A stretch of DNA of 64,000 bases from Sipunculus nudus (lineage: Eukaryota > Annelida > Sipuncula > Golfingiida > Sipunculidae): assembly GCA_026874595.1 (NCBI GenBank), contig CM049309.1, positions 90,728,723-90,792,722 on the forward strand. Direction: 5' to 3'. The notes beneath the pieces were generated by a model. It worked only from the letters and a program-made list of their open reading frames with translations, had not been told where the DNA came from and ran no database searches. Position numbers and translations under genes: made by a program. Shown here one piece after another: positions 12,718 through 64,000 of the stretch; position 1 is the stretch's first letter, and each line of letters begins with the position of its first letter.

Positions 12718-12816
12718 TATATATTCAGTATAATGATAAGCAAGGCAAGGATCTTACATGTCGGAACAGAAGAGCTATTATTGTATTCAGTGTTCAAGCT
12801 GTCAGTATGTCAGCTG

Positions 12817-22904: not shown

Positions 22905-24325
22905 ATTTTGGGGGGCTGCATTTCGGGGAATTAGTATAATGAGTGGCATAAGGAGTTGCTCAAAAAGTACAAATTTGGCTTATTTTGTCCAATTTGAAGT
23001 ATTTCAGGAATTATAAACTGGGCAGTGGAACCTACCAAATGATTAGCGAACAATTTGCACATATAGGGGAGGGGGCGGCATTTCGGTGAATTAGTTTAAT
23101 GAGTGGCATATGGAATTTCTAAAAAATGCAAATTTGGCTTTTTTGTCCCATTTCAAGTATTTTAGAGATTATAAACTGGGCAGTGGAATCTACAAAACGA
23201 TCAGCGAACGATTTGTTCATTTTAGGGGGCGGCATTTCTGGGATTTAGTATAATCAGTGGCATGAGGAGTTCCTCAAAAAGTTCAAATTTGCCCTTTTTG
23301 TCCCATTTTCAAGTATTCCTGGGATTATAAACTGGGCAGTGGAATCTACAAAATGATCAGCGAACGATTTGCACATTTTTGGGGGCGGCATTTATGGGAT
23401 TAAGTACATAATCAGTGGCATAAGGAGTTCCTCAAAAAGTACAAATTTGGCCTTTTTGTCCCATTTCAAGTATTTTAGAGATTATAAACTGGGGAGTTGG
23501 ACCTACAAAATGATCAGCGAACGATATGTACATTTGGTGTGTGTGTAGGGGGGGGGGGGGGTAGCATTTCTGGGATTTGGTATAATCAGTGGCATGAGGA
23601 GTTCCTTAAAAAGTTCAAATTTGGCCTTTTTGTCCCATTTTCTAGTATTCCAGGAATTATAAACTGGGCAGTGGATTCTACAAAATGATCAGCATACGAT
23701 TTGCACATTTTTGGGGGCGGCATTTATGGGATTAAGTACATAATCAGTGGCATAAGGAGTTCCTCAAAAAGTACAAATTTGGCCTTTTTGTCCCATTTCA
23801 AGTATTTTAGAGATTATAAACTGGGGAGTTGGACCTATAAAATGATCAGCGAACGATATGTACATTTGGTGTGTGTGTAGGGGGGGGGGTACCATTTCTG
23901 GGATTTAGTATAATCAGTGGCATGAAGAGTTCCTCAAAAAGTTTAAATTTGGCCTTTTTGTCCCATTTTTCAAGTATTCCAGGGATTATAAACTAGGCAG
24001 TGGAATCTACAAAATGATCAGCGAACGATTTGCACATTTTTGGGGGCGGCATTTATGGGATTAAGTACATAATCAATGGCATAAGGAGTTCCTCAAAAAG
24101 TACAAATTTGGCCTTTTTGTCCCATTTCAAGTATTTTAGAGATTATAAACTGGGGAGTTGGACCTATAAAATGATCAGCGAACGATATGTACATTTGGTG
24201 TGTGTGTAGGGGGGGGGGGTAGCATTTCTGGGATTAAGTATAATCAGTGGCATAAGGAGTTCCTCAAAAAGTACAAATTTGCCCTTTTTGTCCCATTTTC
24301 AAGAATCTCAGGATTAAAACTGGGC
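22905..24325. repeat. internal tandem array, nine ~160-bp units forming ~330-bp dimers
   Basis: The anchor (C/G)A(G/A)TGGCAT occurs at 22941, 23101, 23255, 23413, 23587, 23745, 23915, 24074 and 24245, giving spacings of 154-174. From 23413 on, two unit types alternate. One carries GGGGGCGGCATTTATGGG. The other carries TGTGTGTAG plus a poly-G run and GGTA(G/C)CATTTCTGGG. This gives a dimer period of 328-332. It lies wholly inside the hAT-like element. Confidence 0.9.
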
Positions 24326-30400: not shown

Positions 30401-30680
30401 TAACTTAGAGCGTCAGGATCTGCCTTATTTTCTAATAACTTAGTGCGTCAGGATCTGCCTTATTTTCTAATAACTTAGTGCGTCAGGATCTGCCTTATTT
30501 TCTAATAACTTTGTGCGTCAGGATCTGCCTTATTTTCTAATAACTTAGAGCGTCAGGATCTGCCTTATTTTCTAATAACTTAGTGCGTCAGGATCTGCCT
30601 TATTTTCTAATAACTTAGAGCGTCAGGATCTGCCTTATTTTCTAATAACTTAGAGCGTCAGGATCTGCCTTATTTTCTAA
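30401..30680. repeat. 35-bp minisatellite, eight units
   Basis: The phrase CGTCAGGATCTGCC starts at 30411, 30446, 30481, 30516, 30551, 30586, 30621 and 30656, exactly 35 apart. Units differ at only one or two bases, in the linker ACTTAGAG / ACTTAGTG / ACTTTGTG. This near-identity implies recent expansion and probable length variation between individuals. Confidence 0.95.
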
Positions 30681-40502: not shown

Positions 40503-43199
40503 GTACGTCTGATGAGTCATAGTCTTATAGTGTACTCTCTGAGAAATACGTACAAAGGGGATCTTTTCTGTCTTTGTAACATTGAGAAGAGGAGAAAGGG
40601 CTTGTCTTGTGAGACTTCAAACACGCGTGGAGATGAAGTGATTACATATAAAAGCTTCTATGTATGGCAGTATCGTTTAGTATTCCAGGCAGCTTGTTAC
40701 AGAAATTGGTACAAATATAACAATCGTGACACAGATCGCAAACAGAGACAAAAGAAATTCTCAAGCATTCCTTGCAAATCATACCTTGCAAAATAAAAAA
40801 AAATAAAAGAGAGAACACGAGTTATCACAACATCCTAACCTCATTGATGGAGGCCAAGGTGACATGAAACTGCCTAAGAAACAACATTTTAAGCTTTGGT
40901 TGGTTTATTAGCCTCATAAACACATTCCTAAAACTGTAACTTGTTTTTCTCTATGAATTTCTCTATTAGGCCATCAGTCCTTCACCAGTTACAGTTTCAA
41001 ACAATGTAATCATATCTAAGTTAAAGAGAATATGCGCCAAATTTTACTCGGCATCGTCAAAATATTGGAGGTATCATCCTGTTGTCTCTGGTAGAGACAA
41101 ATAAGAATGCTCAAGGAGATAGTGGTAATATCAACCTGCTGTCTCTGGTCGAGGCCAATAAGAATACTCAGGTAGATGGTGGTGATATCATCCTGTTGTT
41201 TTTGGTAGAGATAAATAAGAATACTCAGGTAGATAGTGGTGATATCATCCTGTTGTCTCTGGTAGAGATAAATAAGAATGTTCAGGTAGATGGTGGTGAT
41301 ATCATCCTGTTGTTTTTGGTAGAGATAAATAAGAATACTCAGGTAGATGGTGGTGATATCATCCTGTTGTCTTTGGTCGAGGCCAATAGGAATACTCGGG
41401 TAGATAGTGGTGATATCATCCTGTTGTCTTTGGTAGAGATAAAAAAGAATGCTCAGGTAGATGGGGGTTGATATCATCCTGTTGTTTTTGGTAGAGATAA
41501 AAAAGAATGCTCAGGTAGATGGTGGTGATATCATCCTGTTGTTTTTGGTAGAGATAAAAAAGAATGCTCAGGTAGATGGTGGTGATATCATCTTGTTGTC
41601 TTTGGTAGAGATAAAAAAGAATGCTCAGGTAGATGGTGGTGATATCTTCCTGTTGTCTTTGGTAGAGATAAAAAAGAATGCTCAGGTAGATGGTGGTGAT
41701 ATCATCCTGTTGTCTTTGGTAGAGATAAAAAAAGAATGCTCAGGTAGATGGTGGTGATATCACCCTGTTGTCTTTGGTAGAGATAAAAAAAAATGCTCAG
41801 GTAGATGGTGGTGATATCATCCTGTTGTTTTTGGTAGAGATAAAAAAGAATACTCAGGTAGATGGTGGTGATATCTTCCTGTTGTCTTTGGTCGAGATAA
41901 AAAAGAATGCTCAGGTAGATGGTGGTGATTTCATCCTGTTGTCTTTGATAGAGATAAAAAAGAATGCTCAGGTAGATGGTGGTGATATCATCCTGTTGTC
42001 TTTGGTAGAGATAAAAAAGACTGCTCAGGTAGATGGTGGTGATATCATCCTGTTGTCTTTGGTAGAGATAAAAAAGAATGCTCAGGTAGATGGTGGTGAT
42101 ATCATCCTGTTGTTTTTGGTAGAGATAAATAAGAATACTCAGGTAGATGGTGGTGATATCATCCTGTTGTCTTTGGTCGAGGCCAATAAGAATACTCGGG
42201 TAGATAGTGGTGATATCTTCCTGTTGTCTTTGGTAGAGATAAAAAGGAATGCTCAGGTAGATGGTGGTGATATCATCCTGTTGTTTTTGGTAGAGATAAA
42301 AAAGAATACTCAGGTAGATGGTGGTGATATCTTCCTGTTGTCTTTGGTCGAGGCCAATAAAAATACTCGGGTAGATAGTGGTGATATCATCCTGCTGTCT
42401 CTGGTAGAGATAAATAAGAATACTCAGGTAGACGGTGGTGATATCATCCTGTTGTTTCTGGTAGAGATAAATAAGAATGCTCAGGTAGATGGTGGTGATA
42501 TCATCCTGTTGTTTTTGGTAGAGATAAAAAAGAATGCTCAGGTAGATAGTGGTGATATCATCCTGTTGTTTTTGGTAGAGATAAAAAAGAATGCTCAGGT
42601 AGATGGTGGTGATATCATCCTGTTGTTTTTGGTAGAGATAAAAAGGAATGCTCAGGTAGATGGTGGTGATATCATCCTGTTGTCTCTGGTAGAGATTAAC
42701 AAGAATGCTCAGGTAGATGGTGGTGATATCATCCTGTTGTTTTTCGTAGGGATAAATAAGAATACTAAGGTAGACAGTGGTGATATCTTCCTGTTGTCTC
42801 TGGTAGAGATAAATAAGAATGCTCAGGTAGATGGTGGTGATATCATCCTGTTGTTTTTGGTAGAGATAAAAAAGAATACTCAGGTAGATGGTGGTGATAT
42901 CTTCCTGTTGTCTTTGGTCGAGGCCAATAAGAATACTCGGGTAGATAGTGGTGATATCATCCTGCTGTCTCTGGTAGAGATAAATAAGAATACTCAGGTA
43001 GACGGTGGTGATATCATCCTGTTGTTTCTGGTAGAGATAAAAAAGAATGCTCAGGTAGATGGTGGTGATATCATCCTGTTGTTTTTGGTAGAGATAAAAA
43101 AGAATGCTCAGGTAGATAGTGGTGATATCATCCTGTTGTTTTTGGTAGAGATAAAAAAGAATGCTCAGGTAGATGGTGGTGATATCATCCTGTTGTTTT

Positions 43200-46100
43200 T
43201 GGTAGAGATAAAAAAGAATGCTCAGGTAGATGGTGGTGATATCATCCTGTTGTCTCTGGTAGAGATTAATAAGAATGCTCAGGTAGGTGGTGGTGATATC
43301 ATCCCGTTGTCTTTGGTCGAGGCCAATAAGAATACTCGGGTAGATAGTGGTGATATCTTCCTGTTGTCTTTGGTTGAGATAAAAAAGAATGCTCAGGTAG
43401 ATGGGGGTTGATATCATCCTGTTGTTTTTGGTAGAGATAAAAAAGAATGCTCAGGTAGATGGTGGTGATATCATCCTGTTGTTTTTCGTAGGGATAAATA
43501 AGAATACTCAGGTAGACAGTGGTGATATCTTCCTGTTGTCTCTGGTAGAGATAAATAAGAATGCTCAGGTAGATGGTGGTGATATCATCCTGTTGTTTTT
43601 GGTAGAGATAAAAAAGAATACTCAGGTAGATGGTGGTGATATCTTCCTGTTGTCTTTGGTCGAGGCCAATAAGAATACTCGGGTAGATAGTGGTGATATC
43701 ATCCTGCTGTCTCTGGTAGAGATAAATAAGAATACTCAGGTAGACGGTGGTGATATCATCCTGTTGTTTCTGGTAGAGATAAATAAGAATGCTCAGGTAG
43801 ATGGTGGTGATATCATCCTGTTGTTTTTGGTAGAGATAAAAAAGAATGCTCAGGTAGATATTGGTGATATCATCCTGTTGTTTTTGGTAGAGATAAAAAA
43901 GAATGCTCAGGTAGATGGTGGTGATATCATCCTGTTGTTTTTGGTAGAGATAAAAAAGAATGCTCAGGTAGATGGTGGTGATTTCATCCTGTTGTCTCTG
44001 GTAGAGATTAATAAGAATGCTCAGGTAGATGGTGGTGATATCATCCTGTTGTCTTTAGTCGAGGCCAATAAGAATACTCGGGTAGATAGTGGTGATATCT
44101 TCCTGTTGTCTTTGGTAGAGATAAAAAAGAATGCTCAGGTAGATGGTGGTGATATCATTCTGTTGTTTTTGGTAGAGATAAATAAGAATACTCAGGTAGA
44201 CAGTGGTGATATCTTCCTGTTGTCTCTGGAAAAGATAAATAAGAATGCTCAGGTAGATGGTGGTGATATCATCCTGTTGTTTTTGGTAGAGATAAAAAAG
44301 AATACTCAGGTAGATGGTGGTGATATCTTCCTGTTGTCTTTGGTCGAGGCCAATAAAAATACTCGGGTAGATAGTAGTGATATCATCCTGCTGTCTCTGG
44401 TAGAGATAAATAAGAATACTCAGGTAGACGGTGGTGATATCATCCTGTTGTTTCTGGTAGAGATAAATAAGAATGCTCAGGTAGATGGTGGTGATATCAT
44501 CCTGTTGTTTTTGGTAGAGATAAAAAAGAATGCTCAGGTAGATAGTGGTGATATCATCCTGTTGTTTTAGGTAGAGATAAAAAAGAATGCTCAGGTAGAT
44601 GGTGGTGATATCATCCTGTTGTTTTTGGTAGAGATAAAAAGGAATGCTCAGGTAGATGGTGGTGATATCATCCTGTTGTCTCTGGTAGAGATTAATAAGA
44701 ATGCTCAGGTAGATGGTGGTGATATCATCCTGTTGTTTTTCGTAGGGATAAATAAGAATACTAAGGTAGACAGTGGTGATATCTTCCTGTTGTCTCTGGT
44801 AGAGATAAATAAGAATGCTCAGGTAGATGGTGGTGATATCATCCTGTTGTTTTTGGTAGAGATAAAAAAGAATACTCAGGTAGATGGTGGTGATATCTTC
44901 CTGTTGTCTTTGGTCGAGGCCAATAAGAATACTCGGGTAGATAGTGGTGATATCATCCTGCTGTCTCTGGTAGAGATAAATAGGAATACTCAGGTAGACG
45001 GTGGTGATATCATCCTGTTGTTTCTGGTAGAGATAAAAAAGAATGCTCAGGTAGATGGTGGTGATATCATCCTGTTGTTTTTGGTAGAGATAAAAAAGAA
45101 TGCTCAGGTAGATAGTGGTGATATCATCCTGTTGTTTTTGGTAGAGATAAAAAAGAATGCTCAGGTAGATGGTGGTGATATCATCCTGTTGTTTTTGGTA
45201 GAGATAAAAAAGAATGCTCAGGTAGATGGTGGTGATATCATCCTGTTGTCTCTGGTAGAGATTAATAAGAATGCTCAGGTAGATGGTGGTGATATCATCC
45301 TGTTGTCTTTGGTCGAGGCCAATAAGAATACTCGGATAGATAGTGGTGATATCATCCTGTTGTCTTTGGTTGAGATAAAAAAGAATGCTCAGGTAGATGG
45401 TGGTGATATCATCCTGTTGTTTTTGGTAGAGACAAAAAAGAATGCTCAGGTAGATGGTGGTGATATCATCCTGTTGTTTTTGGTAGAGATAAAAAAGAAT
45501 GCTCAGATAGATGGTGGTGATATCATCCTGTTGTCTCTGGTAGAGATTAATAAGAATGCTCAGGTAGATGGTGGTGATATCATCCTGTTGTTTTTCGTAG
45601 GGATAAATAAGAATACTCAGGTAGACAGTGGTGATATCTTCCTGTTGTCTCTGGTAGAGATAAATAAGAATGCTCAGGTAGATGGTGGTGATATCATCCT
45701 GTTGTCTCTGGTAGAGATTAATAAGAATGCTCAGGTAGAGGGTGGTGATATCATCCTGTTGTTTTTCGTAGGGATAAATAAGAATACTCAGGTAGACAGT
45801 GGTGATATCTTCCTGTTGTCTCTGGTAGAGATAAATAAGAATGCTCAGGTAGATGGTGGTGATATCATCCTGTTGTTTTTGGTAGAGATAAAAAAGAATA
45901 CTCAGGTAGATGGTGGTGATATCTTCCTGTTGTCTTTGGTCGAGGCCAATAAGAATACTCGGGTAGATAGTGGTGATATCATCCTGCTGTCTCTGGTAGA
46001 GATAAATAAGAATACTCAGGTAGACGGTGGTGATATCATCCTGTTGTTTCTGGTAGAGATAAATAAGAATGCTCAGGTAGATGGTGGTGATATCATCCTG

Positions 46101-49100
46101 TTGTTTTTGGTAGAGATAAAAAAGAATGCTCAGGTAGATAGTGGTGATATCATCCTGTTGTTTTTGGTAGAGATAAAAAAGAATGCTCAGGTAGATGGTG
46201 GTGATATCATCCTGTTGTTTTTGGTAGAGATAAAAAAGAATGCTCAGGTAGATGGTGGTGATATCATCCTGTTGTCTCTGGTAGAGATTAATAAGAATGC
46301 TCAGGTAGATGGTGGTGATATCATCCTGTTGTCTTTAGTCGAGGCCAATAAGAATACTCGGGTAGATAGTGGTGATATCTTCCTGTTGTCTTTGGTAGAG
46401 ATAAAAAAGAATGCTCAGGTAGATGGTGGTGATATCATCCTGTTGTTTTTGGTAGAGATAAATAAGAATACTCAGGTAGATAGTGGTGATATCATCCTGC
46501 TGTCTCTGGTAGAGATAAATAAGAATACTCAGGTAGACGGTGGTGATATCATCCTGTTGTTTCTGGTAGAGATAAAAAAGAATGCTCAGGTAGATGGTGG
46601 TGATATCATCCTGTTGTTTTTGGTAGAGATAAAAAAGAATGCTCAGGTAGATAGTGGTGATATCATCCTGTTGTTTTTGGTAGAGATAAAAAAGAATGCT
46701 CAGGTAGATGGTGGTGATATCATCCTGTTGTTTTTGGTAGAGATAAAAAAGAATGCTCAGGTAGATGGTGGTGATATCATCCTGTTGTCTCTGGTAGAGA
46801 TTAATAAGAATGCTCAGGTAGATGGTGGTGATATCACCCTGTTGTCTTTGGTCGAGGCCAATAAGAATACTCGGGTAGATAGTGGTGATATCATCCTGTT
46901 GTCTTTGGTTGAGATAAAAAAGAATGCTCAGGTAGATGGTGGTGATATCATCCTGTTGTTTTTGGTAGAGATAAGAAAGATTGCTCAGGTAGGTAGATGG
47001 TGGTGATATCATCCTGTTGTTTTTGGTAGAGACAAAAAAGAATGCTCAGGTAGATGTTGGTGATATCATCCTGTTGTTTTTGGTAGAGATAAAAAAGAAT
47101 GCTCACATAGATGGTGGTGATATCATCCTGTTGTCTCTGGTAGAGATTAATAAGAATGCTCAGGTAGATGGTGGTGATATCATCCTGTTGTTTTTCGTAG
47201 GGATAAAAAAGAATGCTCAGGTAGATGGTGGTGATATCATCCTGTTGTTTTTCGTAGGGATAAAAAAGAATGCTCAGGTAGATGGTGGTGATATCATCCT
47301 GTTGTTTTTCGTAGGGATAAAAAAGAATGCTCAGGTAGATGGTGGTGATATCATCCTGTTGTTTTTCGTAGGGATAAAAAAGAATGCTCAGGTAGATGTT
47401 GGTGATATCATCCTGTTGTTTTTGGTAGAGATAAAAAAGAATGCTCACATAGATGGTGGTGATATCATCCTGTTGTCTCTGGTAGAGATTAATAAGAATG
47501 CTCAGGTAGATGGTGGTGATATCATCCTGTTGTTTTTCGTAGGGATAAAAAAGAATACTCAGGTAGATGGTGGTGATATCTTCCTGTTGTCTTTGGTCGA
47601 GGCCAATAAGAATACTCGGGTAGATAGTGGTGATATCATCCTGCTGTCTCTGGTAGAGATAAATAAGAATACTCAGGTAGACGGTGGTGATATCATCCTG
47701 TTGTTTCTGGTAGAGATAAATAAGAATGCTCAGGTAGATGGTGGTGATATCATCCTGTTGTTTTTGGTAGAGATAAAAAAGAATGCTCAGGTAGATAGTG
47801 GTGATATCATCCTGTTGTTTTTGGTAGAGATAAAAAAGAATGCTCAGGTAGATGGTGGTGATATCATCCTGTTCTTTTTGGTAGAGATAAAAAAGAATGC
47901 TCAGGTAGATGTTGGTGATATCATCCTGTTGTCTCTGGTAGAGATTAATAAGAATGCTCAGGTAGATGGTGGTGATATCATCCTGTTGTCTTTAGTCGAG
48001 GCCAATAAGAATACTCGGGTAGATAGTGGTGATATCTTCCTGTTGTCTTTGGTAGAGATAAAAAAGAATGCTCAGGTAGATGGTGGTGATATCATCCTGT
48101 TGTTTTTGGTAGAGATAAATAAGAATACTCAGGTAGAGAGTGGTGATATCTTCCTGTTGTCTCTGGAAGAGATAAATAAGAATGCTCAGGTAGATGGTGG
48201 TGATATCATCCTGTTGTTTTTGGTAGAGATAAAAAAAGAATGCTCAGGTAGATGGTGGTGATATCATCCTGTTGTCTCTGGTAGAGATTAATAAGAATTC
48301 TCAGGTAGATGGTGGTGATATCATCCTGTTGTCTTTGGTAGAGATAAATAAGAATGCTCAGGTAGATGGTGGTGATATCATCCTGTTGTCTTTGGTAGAG
48401 ATAAAAAAGAATGCTCAGGTAGATGGTGGTGATATCATCCTGTTGTCTTTGGTAGAGATAAAAAAGAAGGCTCAGTTAGATAGTGGATAGTCATCCTGTT
48501 GTCTCTGGTAGAGATTAATAAGAATGCTCAGGTAGATGGTGGTGATATCATCCTGTTGTTTTTCGTAGGGATAAATAAGAATACTCAGGTAGACAGTGGT
48601 GATATCTTCCTGTTGTCTCTGGTAGAGATAAATAAGAATGCTCAGGTAGATGGTGGTGATATCATTCTGTTCTTTTTGGTAGAGATAAAAAAGAATACTC
48701 AGGTAGATGGTGGTGATATCTTCCTGTTGTCTTTGGTCGAGGCCAAGAAGAATACTCGGGTAGATAGTGGTGATATCATCCTGCTGTCTCTGGTAGAGAT
48801 AAATAAGAATACTCAGGTAGACGGTGGTGATATCATCCTGTTGTTTCTGGTAGAGATAAATAAGAATGCTCAGGTAGATGGTGGTGATATCATCCTGTTG
48901 TTTTTGGTAGAGATAAAAAAGAATGCTCAGGTAGATAGTGGTGATATCATCCTGTTGTTTTTGGTAGAGATAAAAAAGAATGCTCAGGTAGATGGTGGTG
49001 ATATCATCCTGTTCTTTTTGGTAGAGATAAAAAAGAATGCTCAGGTAGATGGTGGTGATATCATCCTGTTGTCTCTGGTAGAGATTAATAAGAATGCTCA

Positions 49101-49360
49101 GGTAGATGGTGGTGATATCATCCTGTTGTCTTTAGTCGAGGCCAATAAGAATACTCGGGTAGATAGTGGTGATATCTTCCTGTTGTCTTTGGTAGAGATA
49201 AAAAAGAATGCTCAGGTGGATGGTGGTGATATCATCCTGTTGTTTTTGGTAGAGATAAATAAGAATACTCAGGTAGACAGTGGTGATATCTTCCTGTTGT
49301 CTCTGGAAGAGATAAATAAGAATGCTCAGGTAGATGGTGGTGATATCATCCTGTTGTTTT
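43200..49360. repeat. higher-order repeat A, copy 1 (~6.16 kb)
   Basis: This segment of about 108 satellite units recurs 6161 bases to the right with the same rare variants. These include the extra-G unit GATGGGGGTTG at about 43400, a TAG-bearing unit TTGTTTTAGG at about 44565, and a 4-base insertion GGTAGGTAGATGG near 46990. Confidence 0.9.
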
Positions 49361-52300
49361 TGGTAGAGATAAAAAAGAATGCTCAGGTAGATGGTGGTGA
49401 TATCATCCTGTTGTCTCTGGTAGAGATTAATAAGAATGCTCAGGTAGGTGGTGGTGATATCATCCCGTTGTCTTTGGTCGAGGCCAATAAGAATACTCGG
49501 GTAGATAGTGGTGATATCATCCTGTTGTCTTTGGTTGAGATAAAAAAGAATGCTCAGGTAGATGGGGGTTGATATCATCCTGTTGTTTTTGGTAGAGATA
49601 AAAAAGAATGCTCAGGTAGATGGTGGTGATATCATCCTGTTGTTTTTCGTAGGGATAAATAAGAATACTCAGGTAGACAGTGGTGATATCTTCCTGTTGT
49701 CTCTGGTAGAGATAAATAAGAATGCTCAGGTAGATGGTGGTGATATCATCCTGTTGTTTTTGGTAGAGATAAAAAAGAATACTCAGGTAGATGGTGGTGA
49801 TATCTTCCTGTTGTCTTTGGTCGAGGCCAATAAGAATACTCGGGTAGATAGTGGTGATATCATCCTGCTGTCTCTGGTAGAGATAAATAAGAATACTCAG
49901 GTAGACGGTGGTGATATCATCCTGTTGTTTCTGGTAGAGATAAATAAGAATGCTCAGGTAGATGGTGGTGATATCATCCTGTTGTTTTTGGTAGAGATAA
50001 AAAAGAATGCTCAGGTAGATATTGGTGATATCATCCTGTTGTTTTTGGTAGAGATAAAAAAGAATGCTCAGGTAGATGGTGGTGATATCATCCTGTTGTT
50101 TTTGGTAGAGATAAAAAAGAATGCTCAGGTAGATGGTGGTGATTTCATCCTGTTGTCTCTGGTAGAGATTAATAAGAATGCTCAGGTAGATGGTGGTGAT
50201 ATCATCCTGTTGTCTTTAGTCGAGGCCAATAAGAATACTCGGGTAGATAGTGGTGATATCTTCCTGTTGTCTTTGGTAGAGATAAAAAAGAATGCTCAGG
50301 TAGATGGTGGTGATATCATCCTGTTGTTTTTGGTAGAGATAAATAAGAATACTCAGGTAGACAGTGGTGATATCTTCCTGTTGTCTCTGGAAGAGATAAA
50401 TAAGAATGCTCAGGTAGATGGTGGTGATATCATCCTGTTGTTTTTGGTAGAGATAAAAAAGAATACTCAGGTAGATGGTGGTGATATCTTCCTGTTGTCT
50501 TTGGTCGAGGCCAATAAAAATACTCGGGTAGATAGTAGTGATATCATCCTGCTGTCTCTGGTAGAGATAAATAAGAATACTCAGGTAGACGGTGGTGATA
50601 TCATCCTGTTGTTTCTGGTAGAGATAAATAAGAATGCTCAGGTAGATGGTGGTGATATCATCCTGTTGTTTTTGGTAGAGATAAAAAAGAATGCTCAGGT
50701 AGATAGTGGTGATATCATCCTGTTGTTTTAGGTAGAGATAAAAAAGAATGCTCAGGTAGATGGTGGTGATATCATCCTGTTGTTTTTGGTAGAGATAAAA
50801 AGGAATGCTCAGGTAGATGGTGGTGATATCATCCTGTTGTCTCTGGTAGAGATTAATAAGAATGCTCAGGTAGATGGTGGTGATATCATCCTGTTGTTTT
50901 TCGTAGGGATAAATAAGAATACTAAGGTAGACAGTGGTGATATCTTCCTGTTGTCTCTGGTAGAGATAAATAAGAATGCTCAGGTAGATGGTGGTGATAT
51001 CATCCTGTTGTTTTTGGTAGAGATAAAAAAGAATACTCAGGTAGATGGTGGTGATATCTTCCTGTTGTCTTTGGTCGAGGCCAATAAGAATACTCGGGTA
51101 GATAGTGGTGATATCATCCTGCTGTCTCTGGTAGAGATAAATAGGAATACTCAGGTAGACGGTGGTGATATCATCCTGTTGTTTCTGGTAGAGATAAAAA
51201 AGAATGCTCAGGTAGATGGTGGTGATATCATCCTGTTGTTTTTGGTAGAGATAAAAAAGAATGCTCAGGTAGATAGTGGTGATATCATCCTGTTGTTTTT
51301 GGTAGAGATAAAAAAGAATGCTCAGGTAGATGGTGGTGATATCATCCTGTTGTTTTTGGTAGAGATAAAAAAGAATGCTCAGGTAGATGGTGGTGATATC
51401 ATCCTGTTGTCTCTGGTAGAGATTAATAAGAATGCTCAGGTAGATGGTGGTGATATCATCCTGTTGTCTTTGGTCGAGGCCAATAAGAATACTCGGATAG
51501 ATAGTGGTGATATCATCCTGTTGTCTTTGGTTGAGATAAAAAAGAATGCTCAGGTAGATGGTGGTGATATCATCCTGTTGTTTTTGGTAGAGACAAAAAA
51601 GAATGCTCAGGTAGATGGTGGTGATATCATCCTGTTGTTTTTGGTAGAGATAAAAAAGAATGCTCAGATAGATGGTGGTGATATCATCCTGTTGTCTCTG
51701 GTAGAGATTAATAAGAATGCTCAGGTAGATGGTGGTGATATCATCCTGTTGTTTTTCGTAGGGATAAATAAGAATACTCAGGTAGACAGTGGTGATATCT
51801 TCCTGTTGTCTCTGGTAGAGATAAATAAGAATGCTCAGGTAGATGGTGGTGATATCATCCTGTTGTCTCTGGTAGAGATTAATAAGAATGCTCAGGTAGA
51901 GGGTGGTGATATCATCCTGTTGTTTTTCGTAGGGATAAATAAGAATACTCAGGTAGACAGTGGTGATATCTTCCTGTTGTCTCTGGTAGAGATAAATAAG
52001 AATGCTCAGGTAGATGGTGGTGATATCATCCTGTTGTTTTTGGTAGAGATAAAAAAGAATACTCAGGTAGATGGTGGTGATATCTTCCTGTTGTCTTTGG
52101 TCGAGGCCAATAAGAATACTCGGGTAGATAGTGGTGATATCATCCTGCTGTCTCTGGTAGAGATAAATAAGAATACTCAGGTAGACGGTGGTGATATCAT
52201 CCTGTTGTTTCTGGTAGAGATAAATAAGAATGCTCAGGTAGATGGTGGTGATATCATCCTGTTGTTTTTGGTAGAGATAAAAAAGAATGCTCAGGTAGAT

Positions 52301-55179
52301 AGTGGTGATATCATCCTGTTGTTTTTGGTAGAGATAAAAAAGAATGCTCAGGTAGATGGTGGTGATATCATCCTGTTGTTTTTGGTAGAGATAAAAAAGA
52401 ATGCTCAGGTAGATGGTGGTGATATCATCCTGTTGTCTCTGGTAGAGATTAATAAGAATGCTCAGGTAGATGGTGGTGATATCATCCTGTTGTCTTTAGT
52501 CGAGGCCAATAAGAATACTCGGGTAGATAGTGGTGATATCTTCCTGTTGTCTTTGGTAGAGATAAAAAAGAATGCTCAGGTAGATGGTGGTGATATCATC
52601 CTGTTGTTTTTGGTAGAGATAAATAAGAATACTCAGGTAGATAGTGGTGATATCATCCTGCTGTCTCTGGTAGAGATAAATAAGAATACTCAGGTAGACG
52701 GTGGTGATATCATCCTGTTGTTTCTGGTAGAGATAAAAAAGAATGCTCAGGTAGATGGTGGTGATATCATCCTGTTGTTTTTGGTAGAGATAAAAAAGAA
52801 TGCTCAGGTAGATAGTGGTGATATCATCCTGTTGTTTTTGGTAGAGATAAAAAAGAATGCTCAGGTAGATGGTGGTGATATCATCCTGTTGTTTTTGGTA
52901 GAGATAAAAAAGAATGCTCAGGTAGATGGTGGTGATATCATCCTGTTGTCTCTGGTAGAGATTAATAAGAATGCTCAGGTAGATGGTGGTGATATCACCC
53001 TGTTGTCTTTGGTCGAGGCCAATAAGAATACTCGGGTAGATAGTGGTGATATCATCCTGTTGTCTTTGGTTGAGATAAAAAAGAATGCTCAGGTAGATGG
53101 TGGTGATATCATCCTGTTGTTTTTGGTAGAGATAAGAAAGATTGCTCAGGTAGGTAGATGGTGGTGATATCATCCTGTTGTTTTTGGTAGAGACAAAAAA
53201 GAATGCTCAGGTAGATGTTGGTGATATCATCCTGTTGTTTTTGGTAGAGATAAAAAAGAATGCTCACATAGATGGTGGTGATATCATCCTGTTGTCTCTG
53301 GTAGAGATTAATAAGAATGCTCAGGTAGATGGTGGTGATATCATCCTGTTGTTTTTCGTAGGGATAAAAAAGAATACTCAGGTAGATGGTGGTGATATCT
53401 TCCTGTTGTCTTTGGTCGAGGCCAATAAGAATACTCGGGTAGATAGTGGTGATATCATCCTGCTGTCTCTGGTAGAGATAAATAAGAATACTCAGGTAGA
53501 CGGTGGTGATATCATCCTGTTGTTTCTGGTAGAGATAAATAAGAATGCTCAGGTAGATGGTGGTGATATCATCCTGTTGTTTTTGGTAGAGATAAAAAAG
53601 AATGCTCAGGTAGATAGTGGTGATATCATCCTGTTGTTTTTGGTAGAGATAAAAAAGAATGCTCAGGTAGATGGTGGTGATATCATCCTGTTCTTTTTGG
53701 TAGAGATAAAAAAGAATGCTCAGGTAGATGTTGGTGATATCATCCTGTTGTCTCTGGTAGAGATTAATAAGAATGCTCAGGTAGATGGTGGTGATATCAT
53801 CCTGTTGTCTTTAGTCGAGGCCAATAAGAATACTCGGGTAGATAGTGGTGATATCTTCCTGTTGTCTTTGGTAGAGATAAAAAAGAATGCTCAGGTAGAT
53901 GGTGGTGATATCATCCTGTTGTTTTTGGTAGAGATAAATAAGAATACTCAGGTAGAGAGTGGTGATATCTTCCTGTTGTCTCTGGAAGAGATAAATAAGA
54001 ATGCTCAGGTAGATGGTGGTGATATCATCCTGTTGTTTTTGGTAGAGATAAAAAAAGAATGCTCAGGTAGATGGTGGTGATATCATCCTGTTGTCTCTGG
54101 TAGAGATTAATAAGAATTCTCAGGTAGATGGTGGTGATATCATCCTGTTGTCTTTGGTAGAGATAAATAAGAATGCTCAGGTAGATGGTGGTGATATCAT
54201 CCTGTTGTCTTTGGTAGAGATAAAAAAGAATGCTCAGGTAGATGGTGGTGATATCATCCTGTTGTCTTTGGTAGAGATAAAAAAGAAGGCTCAGTTAGAT
54301 AGTGGATAGTCATCCTGTTGTCTCTGGTAGAGATTAATAAGAATGCTCAGGTAGATGGTGGTGATATCATCCTGTTGTTTTTCGTAGGGATAAATAAGAA
54401 TACTCAGGTAGACAGTGGTGATATCTTCCTGTTGTCTCTGGTAGAGATAAATAAGAATGCTCAGGTAGATGGTGGTGATATCATTCTGTTCTTTTTGGTA
54501 GAGATAAAAAAGAATACTCAGGTAGATGGTGGTGATATCTTCCTGTTGTCTTTGGTCGAGGCCAAGAAGAATACTCGGGTAGATAGTGGTGATATCATCC
54601 TGCTGTCTCTGGTAGAGATAAATAAGAATACTCAGGTAGACGGTGGTGATATCATCCTGTTGTTTCTGGTAGAGATAAATAAGAATGCTCAGGTAGATGG
54701 TGGTGATATCATCCTGTTGTTTTTGGTAGAGATAAAAAAGAATGCTCAGGTAGATAGTGGTGATATCATCCTGTTGTTTTTGGTAGAGATAAAAAAGAAT
54801 GCTCAGGTAGATGGTGGTGATATCATCCTGTTCTTTTTGGTAGAGATAAAAAAGAATGCTCAGGTAGATGGTGGTGATATCATCCTGTTGTCTCTGGTAG
54901 AGATTAATAAGAATGCTCAGGTAGATGGTGGTGATATCATCCTGTTGTCTTTAGTCGAGGCCAATAAGAATACTCGGGTAGATAGTGGTGATATCTTCCT
55001 GTTGTCTTTGGTAGAGATAAAAAAGAATGCTCAGGTGGATGGTGGTGATATCATCCTGTTGTTTTTGGTAGAGATAAATAAGAATACTCAGGTAGACAGT
55101 GGTGATATCTTCCTGTTGTCTCTGGAAGAGATAAATAAGAATGCTCAGGTAGATGGTGGTGATATCATCCTGTTGTTTT
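49361..55179. repeat. higher-order repeat A, copy 2 (~5.82 kb)
   Basis: The marker variants lie at about 49561, 50726 and 53150, each 6161 bases after copy 1. Beyond about 53350 the offset drops to 5819, because a 342-base, six-unit block present in copy 1 (units with TTTTTCGTAGGGATAAAAAAG around 47190-47530) is reduced here. Similarity to copy 1 stops near 55190. Confidence 0.9.
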
Positions 55180-57539
55180 TGGTAGAGATAAAAAAGAATA
55201 CTCAGGTAGATGGTGGTGATATCTTCCTGTTGTCTTTGGTCGAGGCCAATAAAAATACTCGGATAGATAGTGGTGATATCATCCTGCTGTCTCTGGTAGA
55301 GATAAATAAGAATACTCAGGTAGACGGTGGTGATATCATCCTGTTGTTTCTGGTAGAGATAAATAAGAATGCTCAGGTAGATGGTGGTGATATCATCCTG
55401 TTGTTTTTGGTAGAGATAAAAAAGAATGCTCAGGTAGATAGTGGTGATATCATCCTGTTGTTTTTGGTAGAGATAAAAAAGAATGCTCAGGTAGATGGTG
55501 GTGATATCATCCTGTTGTTTTTGGTAGAGATAAAAAAGAATGCTCAGGTAGATGGTGGTGATATCATCCTGTTGTCTCTGGTAGAGATTAATAAGAATGC
55601 TCAGGTAGATGGTGGTGATATCATCCTGTTGTTTTTCGTAGGGATAAATAAGAATACTAAGGTAGACAGTGGTGATATCTTCCTGTTGTCTCTGGTAGAG
55701 ATAAATAACAATGCTCAGGTAGATGGTGGTGATATCATCCTGTTGTTTTTGGTAGAGATAAAAAAGAATACTCAGGTAGATGGTGGTGATATCTTCCTGT
55801 TGTCTTTGGTCGAGGCCAATAAGAATACTCGGGTAGATAGTGGTGATATCATCCTGCTGTCTCTGGTAGAGATAAATAAGAATACTCAGGTAGACGGTGG
55901 TGATATCATCCTGTTGTTTCTGGTAGAGATAAAAAAGAATGCTCAGGTAGATGGTGGTGATATCATCCTGTTGTTTTTGGTAGAGATAAAAAAGAATGCT
56001 CAGGTAGATAGTGGTGATATCATCCTGTTGTTTTTGGTAGAGATAAAAAAGAATGCTCAGGTAGATGGTGGTGATATCATCCTGTTGTTTTTGGTAGAGA
56101 TAAAAAAGAATGCTCAGGTAGATGGTGGTGATATCAACCTGTTGTCTCTGGTAGAGATTAATAAGAATGCTCAGGTAGATGGTGGTGATATCATCCTGTT
56201 GTCTTTGGTCGAGGCCAATAAGAATACTCGGGTAGATAGTGGTGATATCATCCTGTTGTCTTTGGTTGAGATAAAAAAGAATGCTCAGGTAGATGGTGGT
56301 GATATCATCCTGTTGTTTTTGGTAGAGATAAAAAAGATTGCTCAGGTAGGTAGATGGTGGTGATATCATCCTGTTGTCTTTGGTAGAGATAAAAAAAAAT
56401 GATCAGGTAGATGGTGGTGATATCATCCTGTTGTTTTTGGTAGAGATAAAAAAAGAATGCTCAGGTAGATGGTGGTGATATCATCCTGTTGTCTCTGGTA
56501 GAGATTAATAAGAATTCTCAGGTAGATGGTGGTGATATCATCCTGTTGTCTTTGGTAGAGATAAATAAGAATGCTCAGGTAGATGGTGGTGATATCATCC
56601 TGTTGTCTTTGGTAGAGATAAAAAAGAATGCTCAGGTAGATGGTGGTGATATCATCCTGTTGTTTTTGGTAGAGATAAAAAAGAATGCTCAGGTAGATGG
56701 TGGTGATATCATCCTGTTGTTTTTGGTAGAGATAAAAAAGAATGCTCAGGTAGATGGTGGTGATATCATCCTGTTGTTTTTGGTAGAGATAAATAAGAAT
56801 ACTCAGGTAGATTGTGGTGATATCATCCTGTTGTTTTTGGTAAAGATAAAAAAGAATACTCAGGTAGATGGTGGTGATACCTTCCTGTTGTCTTTGGTCG
56901 AGGCCAATAAGAATACTCGGGTAGATAGTGGTGAAATCATCCTGTTGTCTTTGGTAGAGATAAAAAAGAATGCTCAGGCAGATGGTGGTGATATCACCCT
57001 GTCGTTTTTGGTAGAGATAAAAAAGAATACTCAGGTAGATGGTGGTGATATCTTCCTGTTGTATTTGGTCGAGGCCAATAAGAATAGTCGGGTAGATAGT
57101 GGTGATATCATCCTGTTGTCTTTGGTAGAGATAAAAAAGAATGCTCAGGTAGATGGTAGTGATATCATCCTGTTGTTTTTGGTAGAGATAAAAAAGAATG
57201 CTCAGGTAGATGGTGGTGATATCATCCTGTTGTTTTTGGTAGAGATAAAAAAGAATGCTCAGGCAGATGGTGGTGATATCATCCTGTTGTTTTTGGAAGA
57301 GATAAAAAAGAATACTCAGGTAGATGGTGGTGATATCATCCTGTTGTTTTTGGTAGAGATAAAAAAGAACGCTCAGGCAGATGGTGGTGATATCTTCCTG
57401 TTGTCTTTGGTAGAGATAAAAAAGAATGCTCAGGTAGATGGTGGTGATATCATCCTGTTGTTTTTGCTAGAGATAAAAAAGAATGCTCAGGTAGATGGTG
57501 GCGATATCATCCTGTTTTTTTTGGTAGAGATAAAAAAGA

Positions 57540-59420
57540 ATGCTCAGGTAGATGGTGGTGATATCATCCTGTTGTTTTTGGTAGAGATAAAAAAGAATGC
57601 TCAGGTAGATGGTGGTGATATCATCCTGTTGTTTTTGGTAGAGATAAAAAAGAATGCTCAGGTAGATGGTGGTGATATCTTCCTGTTGTCTTTGGTAGAG
57701 ATAAAAAAGAATGCTCAGGTAGATGGTGGTGATATCTTCCTGTTGTCTTTGGTAGAGATAAAAAAGAATGCTCAGGTAGATGGTGGTGATATCATCCTGT
57801 TGTTTTTGGTAGAGAAAAAAAGGATGCTCAGGTAGATGGTGGTGATATCATCCTGTTGTTTTTGGTAGAGATAAAAAAGAATGCTGAGGTAGATGGTGGT
57901 GATATCATCCTGTTGTTTTTGGTAGAGATAAAAAAGAATGCTCAGGTAGATGGTGGTGATATCATCCTGTTGTTTTTGGTAGAGATAAAAAAGAATGCTC
58001 AGGTAGATGGTGGTGATATCTTCCTGTTGTTTTTGGTAGAGATAAAAAAGAATGCTCAGGCAGATGGTGGTGATATCTTCCTGTTGTCTTTGGTAGAGAT
58101 AAAAAAGAATACTCAGGTAGATGGTGGTGATATCTTCCTGTTGTCTTTGGAAGAGATAAAAAAGAATGCTCAGGTAGATGGTGGTGATATCATCCTGTTG
58201 TCTTTGGTCGAGGCCAATAAGAATACTCGGGTAGATGGTGGTGATATCTTCCTGTTGTCTTTGGTAGAGATAAAAAAGAATGCTCAGGTAGATGGTGGTG
58301 ATATCATCCTGTTGTCTTTGGTCGAGGCCAATAAGAATACTCGGGTAGATGGTGGTGATATCTTCCTGTTGTTTTTGGTAGAGATAAAAAAGAATGCTCA
58401 GGTAGATGGTGGTGATATCTTCCTGTTGTTTTTGGTAGAGATAAAAAAAGAATACTCAGGTAGATAGTGGTGATATCATCCTGTTGTCTTTGGTCGAGGC
58501 CAATAAGAATACTCGGGTAGATGGTGGTGATATCTTCCTGTTGTCTTTGGTAGAGATAAAAAAGAATGCTCAGGCAGATGGTGGTGATATCTTTCTGTTG
58601 TCTTTCGTCGAGGCCAATAAGAATACTCGGGTAGATGGTGGTGATATCTTCCTGTTGTTTTTGGTAGAGATAAAAAAGAATGCTCAGGTAGATAGTGGTG
58701 ATATCATCCTGTTGTCTTTGGTCGAGGCCAATAAGAATACTCGGGTAGATGGTGGTGATATCTTCCTGTTGTCTTTGGTAGAGATAAAAAAGAATGCTCA
58801 GGTAGATGGTGGTGATATCTTCCTGTTGTTTTTGGTAGAGATAAAAAAGAATACTCAGGTAGATAGTGGTGATATCATCCTGTTGTCTTTGGTCGAGGCC
58901 AATAAGAATACTCGGGTAGATGGTGGTGATATCTTCCTGTTGTCTTTGGTAGAGATAAAAAAGAATGCTCAGGTAGATGGTGATGATATCATCCTGTTGT
59001 CTTTGGTCGAGGCCAATAAGAATACTCGGGTAGATAGTGGCGATATCATCCTGTTGTCTTTGGTCGAGGCCAATAAGAATACTCAGGTAGATGGTGGTGA
59101 TATCTTCCTGTTGTCTTTGGTCGAGATAAAAAAGAATGCTCAGGTAGATGGTGGTGATATCATCCTGTTGTCTTTGGTAGAGATAAAAAAGAATGCTCAG
59201 GTAGATGGTGGTGATATCATCCTGTTGTTTCTGGTAGAGATAAAAAGGAATGCTCAGGCAGATGGTGGTGATATCTTCTTGTTGTCTTTGGTAGAGATAA
59301 AAAAGAATACTCAGGTAGATGGTGGTGATATTTTCCTGTTGTCTTTGGTAGAGATAAAAAAGAATACTCAGGTAGATGGTGGTGATATCTTCCTGTTGTC
59401 TTTGGTAGAGATAAAAAAGA
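57540..59420. repeat. higher-order repeat B, copy 1
   Basis: This segment shares an ordered set of variants with 61019-62950. The rare unit AATGCTGAGG is at 57881, and an extra A in the A-run (KKEYSGR frame break) is at about 58447. The offset to copy 2 is about 3479 bases. A partial third copy of the GCTGAGG block starts at about 59991. Confidence 0.85.
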
Positions 59421-61018
59421 ATGCTCAGGTAGATGGTGGTGATATCATCCTGTTGTTTTTGGTAGAGATAAAAAAGAATGCTCAGGCAGATGGTGGTGAT
59501 ATCTTCCTGTTGTCTTTGGTAGAGATAAAAAAGAATACTCAGGTAGATGGTGGTGATATCTTCCTGTTGTCTTTGGTAGAGATAAAAAAGAATACTCAGG
59601 TAGATGGTGGTGATATCTTCCTGTTGTCTTTGGTAGAGATAAAAAAGAATGCTCAGGTAGATGGTGGTGATATCATCCTGTTGTTTTTGGTCGAGACCAA
59701 TAATAATACTCGGGTAGATAGTGGTGATATCATCATGTTGTTATTGGTAGAGATAAAAAAGAATGCTCAGGTAGATGGTGGTGATTTCTTCCTGTTGTCT
59801 TTGGTAGAGATAAAAAAGAATACTCAGGTAGATGGTGGTGATATCTTCCTGTTGTCTTTGGTAGAGATAAAAAAGAATACTCAGGTAGATGGTGGTGATA
59901 TCTTCCTGTTGTCTTTGGTAGAGATAAAAAATAATGCTCAGGTAGATGGTGGTGATATCATCCTGTTGTTTTTGGTAGAGATAAAAAAGAATGCTGAGGT
60001 AGATGGTGGTGATATCATCCTGTTGTTTTTGGTAGAGATAAAAAAGAATGCTCAGGTAGATGGTGGTGATATCATCCTGTTGTTTTTGGTAGAGATAAAA
60101 AAGAATGCTCAGGTAGATGGTGGTGATTTCTTCCTGTTGTTTTTGGTAGAGATAAAAAAGAATGCTCAGGCAGATGGTGGTGATATCTTCCTGTTGTCTT
60201 TGGTAGAGATAAAAAAGAATACTCAGGTAGATGGTGGTGATATCTTCCTGTTGTCTTTGGTAGAGATAAAAAAGAATGCTCAGGTAGATGGTGGTGATAT
60301 CATCCTGTTGTCTTTGGTCGAGGCCAATAAGAATATTCGGGTAGATGGTGGTGATATCTTCCTGTTGTCTTTGGTAGAGATAAAAAAGAATCCTCAGGTA
60401 GATGGTGGTGATATCATCCTGTTGTCTTTGGTCGAGGCCAATAAGAATACTCGGGTAGATGGTGGTGATATCTTCCTGTTGTTTTTGGTAGAGATAAAAA
60501 AAGAATGCTCAGGTAGATGGTGGTGATATCTTCCTGTTGTTTTTGGTAGAGATAAAAAAGAATGCTCAGGTAGATGGTGGTGATATCATCCTGTTGTTTT
60601 TGGTAGATATAAAAAAGAATGCTCAGGCAGATGGTGGTGATATCATCCTGTTGTTTTTGGTCGAGATAAAAAAGAATACTCAGGTTGATGGTGGTGATAT
60701 CATCCTGTTGTTTTTGGTAGAGATAAAAAAGAATGCTCAGGCAGATGGTGGTGATATCTTCCTGTTGTCTTTGGTAGAGATAAAAAAGAATGCTCAGGTA
60801 GATGGTGGTGATATCTTCCTGTTGTCTTTGGTAGAGATAAAAAAGAATGCTCAGGTAGATGGTGGTGATATCATCCTGTTGTCTCTGGTAGAGATAAATA
60901 AGAATACTCAGGTAGATAGTGGTGATATCTTCCTGTTGTTTTTGGTAGAGATAAAAAAGAATGCTCAGGTAGATGGTGGTGATATCATCCTGTTGTTTTT
61001 GGTAGAGATAAAAAAGAA

Positions 61019-62950
61019 TGCTCAGGTAGATGGTGGTGATATCATCCTGTTGTTTTTGGTAGAGATAAAAAAGAATGCTCAGGTAGATGGTGGTGATATC
61101 ATCCTGTTGTTTTTGGTAGAGATAAAAAAGAATGCTCAGGTAGATGGTGGTGATATCTTCCTGTTGTCTTTGGTAGAGATAAAAAAGAATGCTCAGGTAG
61201 ATGGTGGTGATATCTTCCTGTTGTCTTTGGTAGAGATAAAAAAGAATGCTCAGGTAGATGGTGGTGATATCATCCTGTTGTTTTTGGTAGAGATAAAAAA
61301 GAATGCTCAGGTAGATGGTGGTGATATCATCCTGTTGTTTTTGGTAGAGATAAAAAAGAATGCTGAGGTAGATGGTGGTGATATCATCCTGTTGTTTTTG
61401 GTAGAGATAAAAAAGAATGCTCAGGTAGATGGTGGTGATATCATCCTGTTGTTTTTGGTAGAGATAAAAAAGAATTCTCAGGTAGATGGTGGTGATATCT
61501 TCCTGTTGTTTTTGGTAGAGATAAAAAAGAATGCTCAGGCAGATGGTGGTGATATCTTCCTGTTGTCTTTGGTAGAGATAAAAAAGAATACTCAGGTAGA
61601 TGGTGGTGATATCTTCCTGTTGTCTTTGGTAGAGATAAAAAAGAATGCTCAGGTAGATGGTGGTGATATCATCCTGTTGTCTTTGGTCGAGGCCAATAAG
61701 AATACTCGGGTAGATGGTGGTGATATCTTCCTGTTGTCTTTGGTAGAGATAAAAAAGAATGCTCAGGTAGATGGTGGTGATATCATCCTGTTGTCTTTGG
61801 TCGAGGCCAATAAGAATACTCGGGTAGATGGTGGTGATATCTTCCTGTTGTTTTTGGTAGAGATAAAAAAGAATGCTCAGGTAGATGGTGGTGATATCTT
61901 CCTGTTGTTTTTGGTAGAGATAAAAAAAGAATACTCAGGTAGATAGTGGTGATATCATCCTGTTGTCTTTGGTCGAGGCCAATAAGAATACTCGGGTAGA
62001 TGGTGGTGATATCTTCCTGTTGTCTTTGGTAGAGATAAAAAAGAATGCTCAGGCAGATGGTGGTGATATCTTCCTGTTGTCTTTGGTCGAGGCCAATAAG
62101 AATACTCGGGTAGATGGTGGTGATATCTTCCTGTTGTTTTTGGTAGAGATAAAAAAGAATGCTCAGGTAGATAGTGGTGATATCATCCTGTTGTCTTTGG
62201 TCGAGGCCAATAAGAATACTCGGCTAGATGGTGGTGATATCTTCCTGTTGTCTTTGGTAGAGATAAAAAAGAATGCTCAGGTAGATGGTGGTGATATCTT
62301 CCTGTTGTTTTTGGTAGAGATAAAAAAGAATACTCAGGTAGATAGTGGTGATATCATCCTGTTGTCTTTGGTCGAGGCCAATAAGAATACTCGGGTAGAT
62401 GGTGGTGATATCTTCCTGTTGTCTTTGGTAGAGATAAAAAAGAATGCTCAGGTAGATGGTGGTGATATCATCCTGTTGTCTTTGGTCGAGGCCAATAAGA
62501 ATACTCGGGTAGATAGTGGCGATATCATCCTGTTGTCTTTGGTCGAGGCCAATAAGAATACTCAGGTAGATGGTGGTGATATCTTCCTGTTGTCTTTGGT
62601 AGAGATAAAAAAGAATGCTCAGGCAGATGGTGGTGATATCTTCCTGTTGTCTTTGGTCGAGATAAAAAAGAATGCTCAGGTAGATGGTGGTGATATCATC
62701 CTGTTGTCTTTGGTAGAGATAAAAAAGAATGCTCAGGTAGATGGTGGTGATATCATCCTGTTGTTTTTGGTAGAGATAAAAAGGAATGCTCAGGCAGATG
62801 GTGGTGATATCTTCTTGTTGTCTTTGGTAGAGATAAAAAAGAATACTCAGGTAGATGGTGGTGATATTTTCCTGTTGTCTTTGGTAGAGATAAAAAAGAA
62901 TACTCAGGTAGATGGTGGTGATATCTTCCTGTTGTCTTTGGTAGAGATAA
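61019..62950. repeat. higher-order repeat B, copy 2
   Basis: GCTGAGG marker unit at 61360 and extra-A frame break at about 61926, each 3479 bases after copy 1. One additional 57-bp unit is inserted near 62600 relative to copy 1. Confidence 0.85.
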
Positions 62951-64000
62951 CAAAAGAATGCTCAGGTAGATGTTGGTGATATCATCCTGTTGTTTTTGGT
63001 AGAGGCCAATAAGAATACTCGGGTAGATAGTGGTGATATCATCCTGTTGTTTTTGGTAGAGATAAAAAAGAATGCTCAGGTAGATGGTGGTGATATCATC
63101 CTGTTGTTTTTGGTAGAGATAAAAAAGAATGCTCAGGTAGATGGTGGTGATATCTTCCTGTTGTCTTTGGTAGAGATAAAAAAGAATGCTCAGGTAGATG
63201 GTGGTGATATCTTCCTGTTGTCTTTGGTAGAGATAAAAAAGAATGCTCAGGTAGATGGTGGTGATATCATCCTGTTGTTTTTGGTAGAGATAAAAAAGAA
63301 TGCTCAGGTAGATGGTGGTGATATCATCCTGTTGTTTTTGATAGAGATAAAAAAGAATGCTCAGGCAGATGGTGGTGATATCTTCCTGTTGTCTTTGGTA
63401 GAGATAAAAAAGAATGCTCAGGTAGATGGTGGTGATATCATCCTGTTGTTTTTGGTAGAGATAAAAAAGAATGCTCAGGTAGATGGTGGTGATATCATCC
63501 TGTTGTTTTTGGTAGAGATAAAAAAGAATGCTCAGGTAAATGGTGGTGATATCATCCTGTTGTTTTTGGTAGAGATAAAAAAGAATACTCAGGTTGATGG
63601 TGGTGATATCATCCTGTTGTTTTTGGTCGAAGCCAATAAGAATACTCGGGTAGATAGTGGTGATATCATCCTGTTGTTTTTGGTAGAGATAAATAAGAAT
63701 ACTCAGGCAGATGGTGGTGATATCATCCTGTTGTTTTTGGTAGATATAAAAAAGAATACTCAGGTAGATGGTGGTGATATCTTCCTGTTGTTTTTGGTCG
63801 AGGCCAATAAGAATACTCGGGTAGATAGTGGTGATATCATCCTGTTGTCTTTGGTAGAGATAAAAAAGAATACTCAGGTAGATGGTGGTGATATCTTCCT
63901 GTTGTCTTTGGTAGAGATAAAAAAGAATGCTCAGGTAGATGGTGGTGATATCATCCTGTTGTCTTTGGTAGAGATAAAAAAAAATACTCAGGTAGATGGT

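Follow-up and report, generated by a model that had tools for sequence, protein, structure and literature searches.

A single-locus array of 542 copies of a 57-bp unit in Sipunculus nudus, very probably a non-coding minisatellite

Here, we describe a 57-bp repeat that occupies 30.9 kb at one place in the genome assembly of the sipunculan Sipunculus nudus. The array is very probably a non-coding minisatellite, confined to a single locus and enlarged by unequal exchange and slippage, and its anatomy needs no function to explain it. The window analysed is a stretch of 64,000 nucleotides, positions 90,728,723-90,792,722 of contig CM049309.1 (C4 below), from an assembly of 1.4265 Gb in 153 contigs. 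We also read 50 kb to the left of the window and 150 kb to its right. Positions refer to the window unless a contig or piece is named.

Results

The initial annotation had reported a 57-bp array of about 23 kb and about 400 copies that goes on past the window, and all of this holds. TRF finds a single array with a period of 57 in the window, head to tail at 41,072-64,000, with 401.9 copies, 90% matches, 0% indels and a score of 35,910. Wraparound alignment divides the same part into 402 units on the + strand, 20 of which are flagged (19 with indels, one cut by the window end). In the fetched flanks the array extends for a further 7,978 bp and ends at C4:90,800,700 (L006 position 7,978; would-be window coordinate 71,978), at 90.80 Mb on a contig of 97.5 Mb. 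Once the flanks are included, wraparound alignment yields 542 units, uninterrupted, on one strand and in register throughout.

The majority unit of the whole array is ATCATCCTGTTGTTTTTGGTAGAGATAAAAAAGAATGCTCAGGTAGATGGTGGTGAT; the majority base of column 14 becomes C (203 versus 197) when only the window part is considered. Across the 542 units, mean identity is 91% between pairs of units and 94% to the consensus, and 184 distinct unit types occur when insertions are ignored, so that the very low divergence first ascribed to the array was too strong a description. Indels are present in 22 of the 542 units; all are of 1, 2 or 4 nt, and several are common to duplicated blocks. The earlier proposal of two classes of monomer captures part of this variation. 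A linked haplotype at columns 21, 25, 26, 27 and 41 (r2 0.51-0.85) does define a minority class, which comprises 73/542 units by the base in column 25 and is scattered along the array, but a two-class scheme is incomplete, since the 14 variable columns of the unit give 82 haplotypes. Composition also shifts along the array: T is commoner in column 30 to the left of about 56,500, a left/right difference for which we have no explanation beyond separate expansion histories. The ratio of observed to expected CpG is 0.21 in the array versus 0.71 in the surroundings; the dinucleotide is absent from the consensus unit and present in the minority class. A simple pattern search finds no G-quadruplex motif in unit or array, two joined units give only weak predicted foldings (-6.0 and -5.6), and the window contains no tRNA and no Rfam family at gathering score.

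To the right, the array gives way to a (TA)n run and then to other non-array sequence. With both ends read and a single locus found, the array is a discrete locus bounded by non-array sequence. Tandem repetition is common in this neighborhood. Other minisatellites (period 10-100 bp, at least five copies) account for 21,080 bp of the 233,081 bp of surrounding sequence, and the claim that the array is unusual for its surroundings is hard to maintain, even though it is longer than any of the others read. One of them consists of 186 copies of a 48-bp unit, is 8.9 kb long and lies some 36 kb beyond the right end of the array (L010-L011, C4:90,836,858-90,845,770). A nested 28/57/114-bp tandem array of 3.5 kb (L004, C4:90,711,583-90,715,094) seems unrelated in sequence to the 57-bp unit. 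Within the window, TRF further reports a 332-bp unit in 4.3 copies with a substructure of about 157 bp (22910-24325) and a 35-bp unit in eight copies with 97% matches (30401-30680).

No host gene was found around the array when Pfam was run on 231 open frames (61 aa or longer), which comprise 141 of the 146 frames to its left in the window (the five omitted are antisense to reverse transcriptase) and all 90 in the 22 kb to its right. Short exons would escape such a scan, so the array may still lie in an intron. Frames to the left match RVT_1 (E 1.3e-34) and zf-RVT (E 1.3e-5), and probably belong to a non-LTR element. The reverse-transcriptase fragments, at 12703-14998 on the + strand, are spread over three overlapping open frames, and hence are not intact as one frame. 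To the right, one frame matches RVT_1 (E 1.1e-4); weak matches to two bacterial models (E 0.0012 and 0.0046) are probably due to chance.

A separate observation concerns the assembly as a whole, which appears to include bacterial genomes. A search for oxidase subunit I (COX1) gives 11 matches, ten of them on nine bacterial-looking contigs with a bacterial-type subunit (C60, C61, C62, C66, C72, C74, C75, C89 and C123, of which C61 and C123 were translated). The remaining match is one short fragment with an internal TGA on C5. A search for the haemocyanin domain of molluscs returned no match, and neither did its control. The oxidase protein of C61 shows at most 58% identity to the best 80 of 589 GTDB loci.

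The left boundary of the array is adjoined by a decayed MITE-like element at 40777..41053 on the + strand, recognized by comparison with L118 and L116. Two pieces are supported by blast, 40,777-40,795 and 40,960-41,053. The supported match stops at 41,053, 19 bp short of the array, and only a loose alignment reaches further; the intervening 19 bp or so may be an eroded terminal repeat of the element. Used as a genome query, the 600 bp to the left of the array retrieve, besides their own locus, five weaker matches (71-78%) on other contigs. An element of 538 bp with terminal inverted repeats lies at L118 1083-1620, in an apparent intron; around it are apparent exons of what we take to be an acylaminoacyl-peptidase gene. 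It has a relative on L116, and partial relatives occur on C4 and C8 and probably on further contigs.

This juxtaposition raises the possibility that a mobile element, of MITE or Helitron-like type, brought the array in or seeded it, by analogy with several satellites of bivalves; arrays borne by MITEs and Helentrons are described in extracts of PMC9659126 and PMC8268682. The decayed inverted-repeat element ending about 19 bp from the first unit speaks for such an origin. Against it, no second copy of the unit is found by either of the genome-wide patterns described below, and in 2 kb of the right flank there are no pieces of the element beyond chance-level hits. Nor was any sequence relation detected between the 57-bp unit and the element, so seeding by the MITE is suggested by position only: the repeat lies beside a multi-copy element, neither inside it nor, to judge from the sequences, derived from it. 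When the 3-kb flanks of the array are compared with each other for inverted and direct repeats, the best match has an E of 0.094, which is at chance level. All told, we consider an origin by way of a mobile element possible but rather unlikely.

The order of the units suggests how the array grew. Units, numbered from 0 to 541, were compared at every lag in 20-unit windows, with 20 shuffles of unit order as a control. At lags 102, 108, 61, 83, 191, 35, 143 and 226, the best windows contain 0, 0, 6, 7, 8, 9, 9 and 9 differences, respectively, and several further lags score 29-34; the minimum in the 20 shuffles is 43. Three of these lags are composites (191 = 83+108, 143 = 35+108 and 226 = 35+83+108). 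Because some lags are sums of others, independent events are suggested at about 108/102, 61, 83 and 35 units. The order is one of nested block duplications, the newest of which duplicated about 6 kb in tandem. Its first copy spans units 37-144 (108 units; 43184..49344, + strand) and its second, adjoining copy units 145-246 (102 units; 49345..55163, + strand), with limits, set from matching unit pairs, that are good to within a few units. At lag 108, units 37-106 pair with 145-214 (70 pairs, three substitutions); at lag 102, units 111-144 pair with 213-246 (34 pairs, no substitutions). In total, three substitutions separate the copies over the 102 units of the second (104 pairs, two units being paired twice). 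The shift in lag from 108 to 102 corresponds to a 6-unit difference in length between the copies, and the extra units of the first appear, from their translations, to be a local series of units of a single type. The suggestion that the array is recently expanded is borne out for this block; it does not extend to the array at large, where units generally differ by about 9%.

Near-identity of the two blocks is also what an assembly artefact would produce, one block having been counted twice in an array that is real but shorter. Accurate long reads are typically shorter than this array, and the second block differs from the first by so few substitutions that the concern has some basis. However, the blocks differ also by a clean change of six units in length, and greater divergence, 6-9 differences in the best 20 units, is seen for the duplications at lags 61, 83 and 35. 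Even with one block removed, the array would measure about 25 kb. We therefore regard an artefact of this sort as very unlikely.

The ends of the array differ somewhat from its interior. Counting as rare any variant common to at most five other units, end units 0, 1, 540 and 541 carry 3, 1, 3 and 3 rare variants (unit 541 over its first 48 columns), against an inner mean of 0.33; at least three occur in 8/538 inner units and at least one in 141/538. With its single rare variant, unit 1 is unremarkable. The consensus identity of the end units is not exceptional either, since 73/538 inner units score 0.86 or less. Of the two left-end units (41073..41186, + strand), unit 1 shares A in column 5 and C in column 10 with the last unit, 541. 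These two variants are found also in 1 and 18 inner units, respectively, and since they occur inside as well, they do not prove that the end units are relics of the founder. The anatomy fits ends that are less homogenised than the interior.

Two patterns were used to scan the genome, one of 27 bp (up to two mismatches) and one of 29 bp (up to three), which overlap by 10 bp and jointly cover 46 of the 57 columns; strongly diverged relatives would escape them. The 27-bp pattern has 536 matches assembly-wide on the + strand and none on the - strand; the 29-bp pattern has 533, on the + strand only. Reversed controls give none in either case. Local counts inside the array are likewise 536 and 533, and this equality indicates one locus. 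No further copy of the unit was detected in the 264 kb read around the array. At 30.9 kb, the array accounts for about 0.002% of the 1.4265-Gb assembly. The unit appears to belong to no family yet described, a status that rests on the genome scans and one literature text search, in which three 16-base strings of the unit had no match.

These counts bear on the idea that the array is one block, or the edge, of a satellite family that is dispersed or heterochromatic. That idea had been favored by the size of the array (30.9 kb) and by its running off the window, and the initial annotation had named the edge of a heterochromatic block as one possibility. But both ends of the array have now been seen, so the array is not the edge of a larger block; judged from its sequence, the block would appear to end after 30.9 kb, in the (TA)n run and non-array sequence. 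The two patterns match genome-wide only as often as inside the array, and a share of about 0.002% at one locus is not the abundant family of classical satellite DNA. We reject the dispersed satellite and the block edge as highly improbable; the other possibility named at the outset, a local satellite, agrees with the scans.

Finally, we considered a repeat-coding exon or gene, specifying a giant protein of 19-residue repeats. One frame is open on each strand of the unit (19 codons), and within the array open frames reach 811 aa on the + strand and 759 aa on the - strand. Because 57 = 3 x 19, any frame that lacks a stop in one unit is likely to lack it in the units that follow. In shuffled 57-mers of the same make-up, a mean of 1.5 of the six frames are open, and at least two are open in half of 2,000 shuffles; two open frames are therefore expected without coding. 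Variant types are neutral-like in both frames under two weightings. The synonymous, nonsynonymous and stop variants observed on the + strand number 28, 82 and 5; weighting transitions 2:1 predicts 29.3, 82.2 and 3.5, and no weighting 24.9, 86.1 and 4.0. For the - strand, the observed 26, 80 and 9 compare with 26.7, 81.7 and 6.6 (2:1) or 22.2, 86.1 and 6.7 (unweighted). The 2:1 weighting is an assumption; among the rare variants, 28 of 74 are transitions. Mean variation at codon positions 1, 2 and 3 is 0.069, 0.054 and 0.052, no higher at the third than at the others, and the frame, broken by indels of 1, 2 and 4 nt, is neither kept nor constrained. The neutral-like variant types and frame-breaking indels argue that the array is non-coding, on the grounds of its sequence. 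A coding repeat, the least probable of the readings, is rejected on these two counts together with the codon-position variation.

Discussion

The array is ordinary in kind and large in size; its unit is private, but its kind is already known. Minisatellites, or VNTRs, are characterized in an extract of PMC12692304 by units of 11-60 bp and by arrays usually a few hundred bp long. The present array, with 542 head-to-tail units of 57 bp, falls within that unit range. It resembles minisatellites as that extract portrays them in its head-to-tail unit, in having no sign of coding, in a turnover that would proceed by uneven exchange, and in the other minisatellites nearby. It departs from the usual ones in its length of 30.9 kb, as seen in one assembly, and given the few hundred bp reported there it is long for its class.

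Two further systems offer partial parallels. In Crassostrea gigas, the satellite CgiSat01 reaches about 40 kb in one stand-alone array that includes an assembly gap; it is the most abundant satellite of that species, and 91.4% of its extractions are element-associated, according to the portion of PMC8268682 drawn on here. Like CgiSat01 and other C. gigas satellites as depicted there, our locus presents a long stand-alone array in a genome rich in scattered tandem arrays, and a possible link to a mobile element. Unlike the abundant CgiSat01, the 57-bp unit is found at one place only. The MITE-like element adjoining the array likewise recalls the MITE-linked tandem repeats in the extract of PMC9659126. 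Those repeats, as presented there, lie inside or derive from the element, whereas no sequence relation was detected between the 57-bp unit and its neighbor.

How might such an array arise? The non-coding minisatellite that we favor would have started from a short tandem duplication, perhaps beside the decayed MITE. Misaligned exchange between sister or homologous arrays could then have lengthened it in blocks of tens to about 100 units, and slippage on a small scale would add runs of a few like units. Such turnover would homogenise inner units, and end units less so.

A more specific history can be proposed, albeit tentatively, and we think it unlikely as a whole: that the origin of the array lies in one lineage, at the end of a MITE insertion, and that it grew to tens of kb by exchange within the locus, so that the order of its units is a readable record of nested duplications and its end units retain traces of the founder. 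If true, an origin of this kind would offer a clean natural setting in which to date the stages of satellite birth that precede dispersal.

The array matters little beyond its kind. Nevertheless, with its private unit, both ends read and a visible history of duplication, this 30.9-kb array makes a tidy example of a satellite-sized tandem repeat at a single locus. It also illustrates that heterochromatin is not implied when a large array extends beyond the edge of a window.
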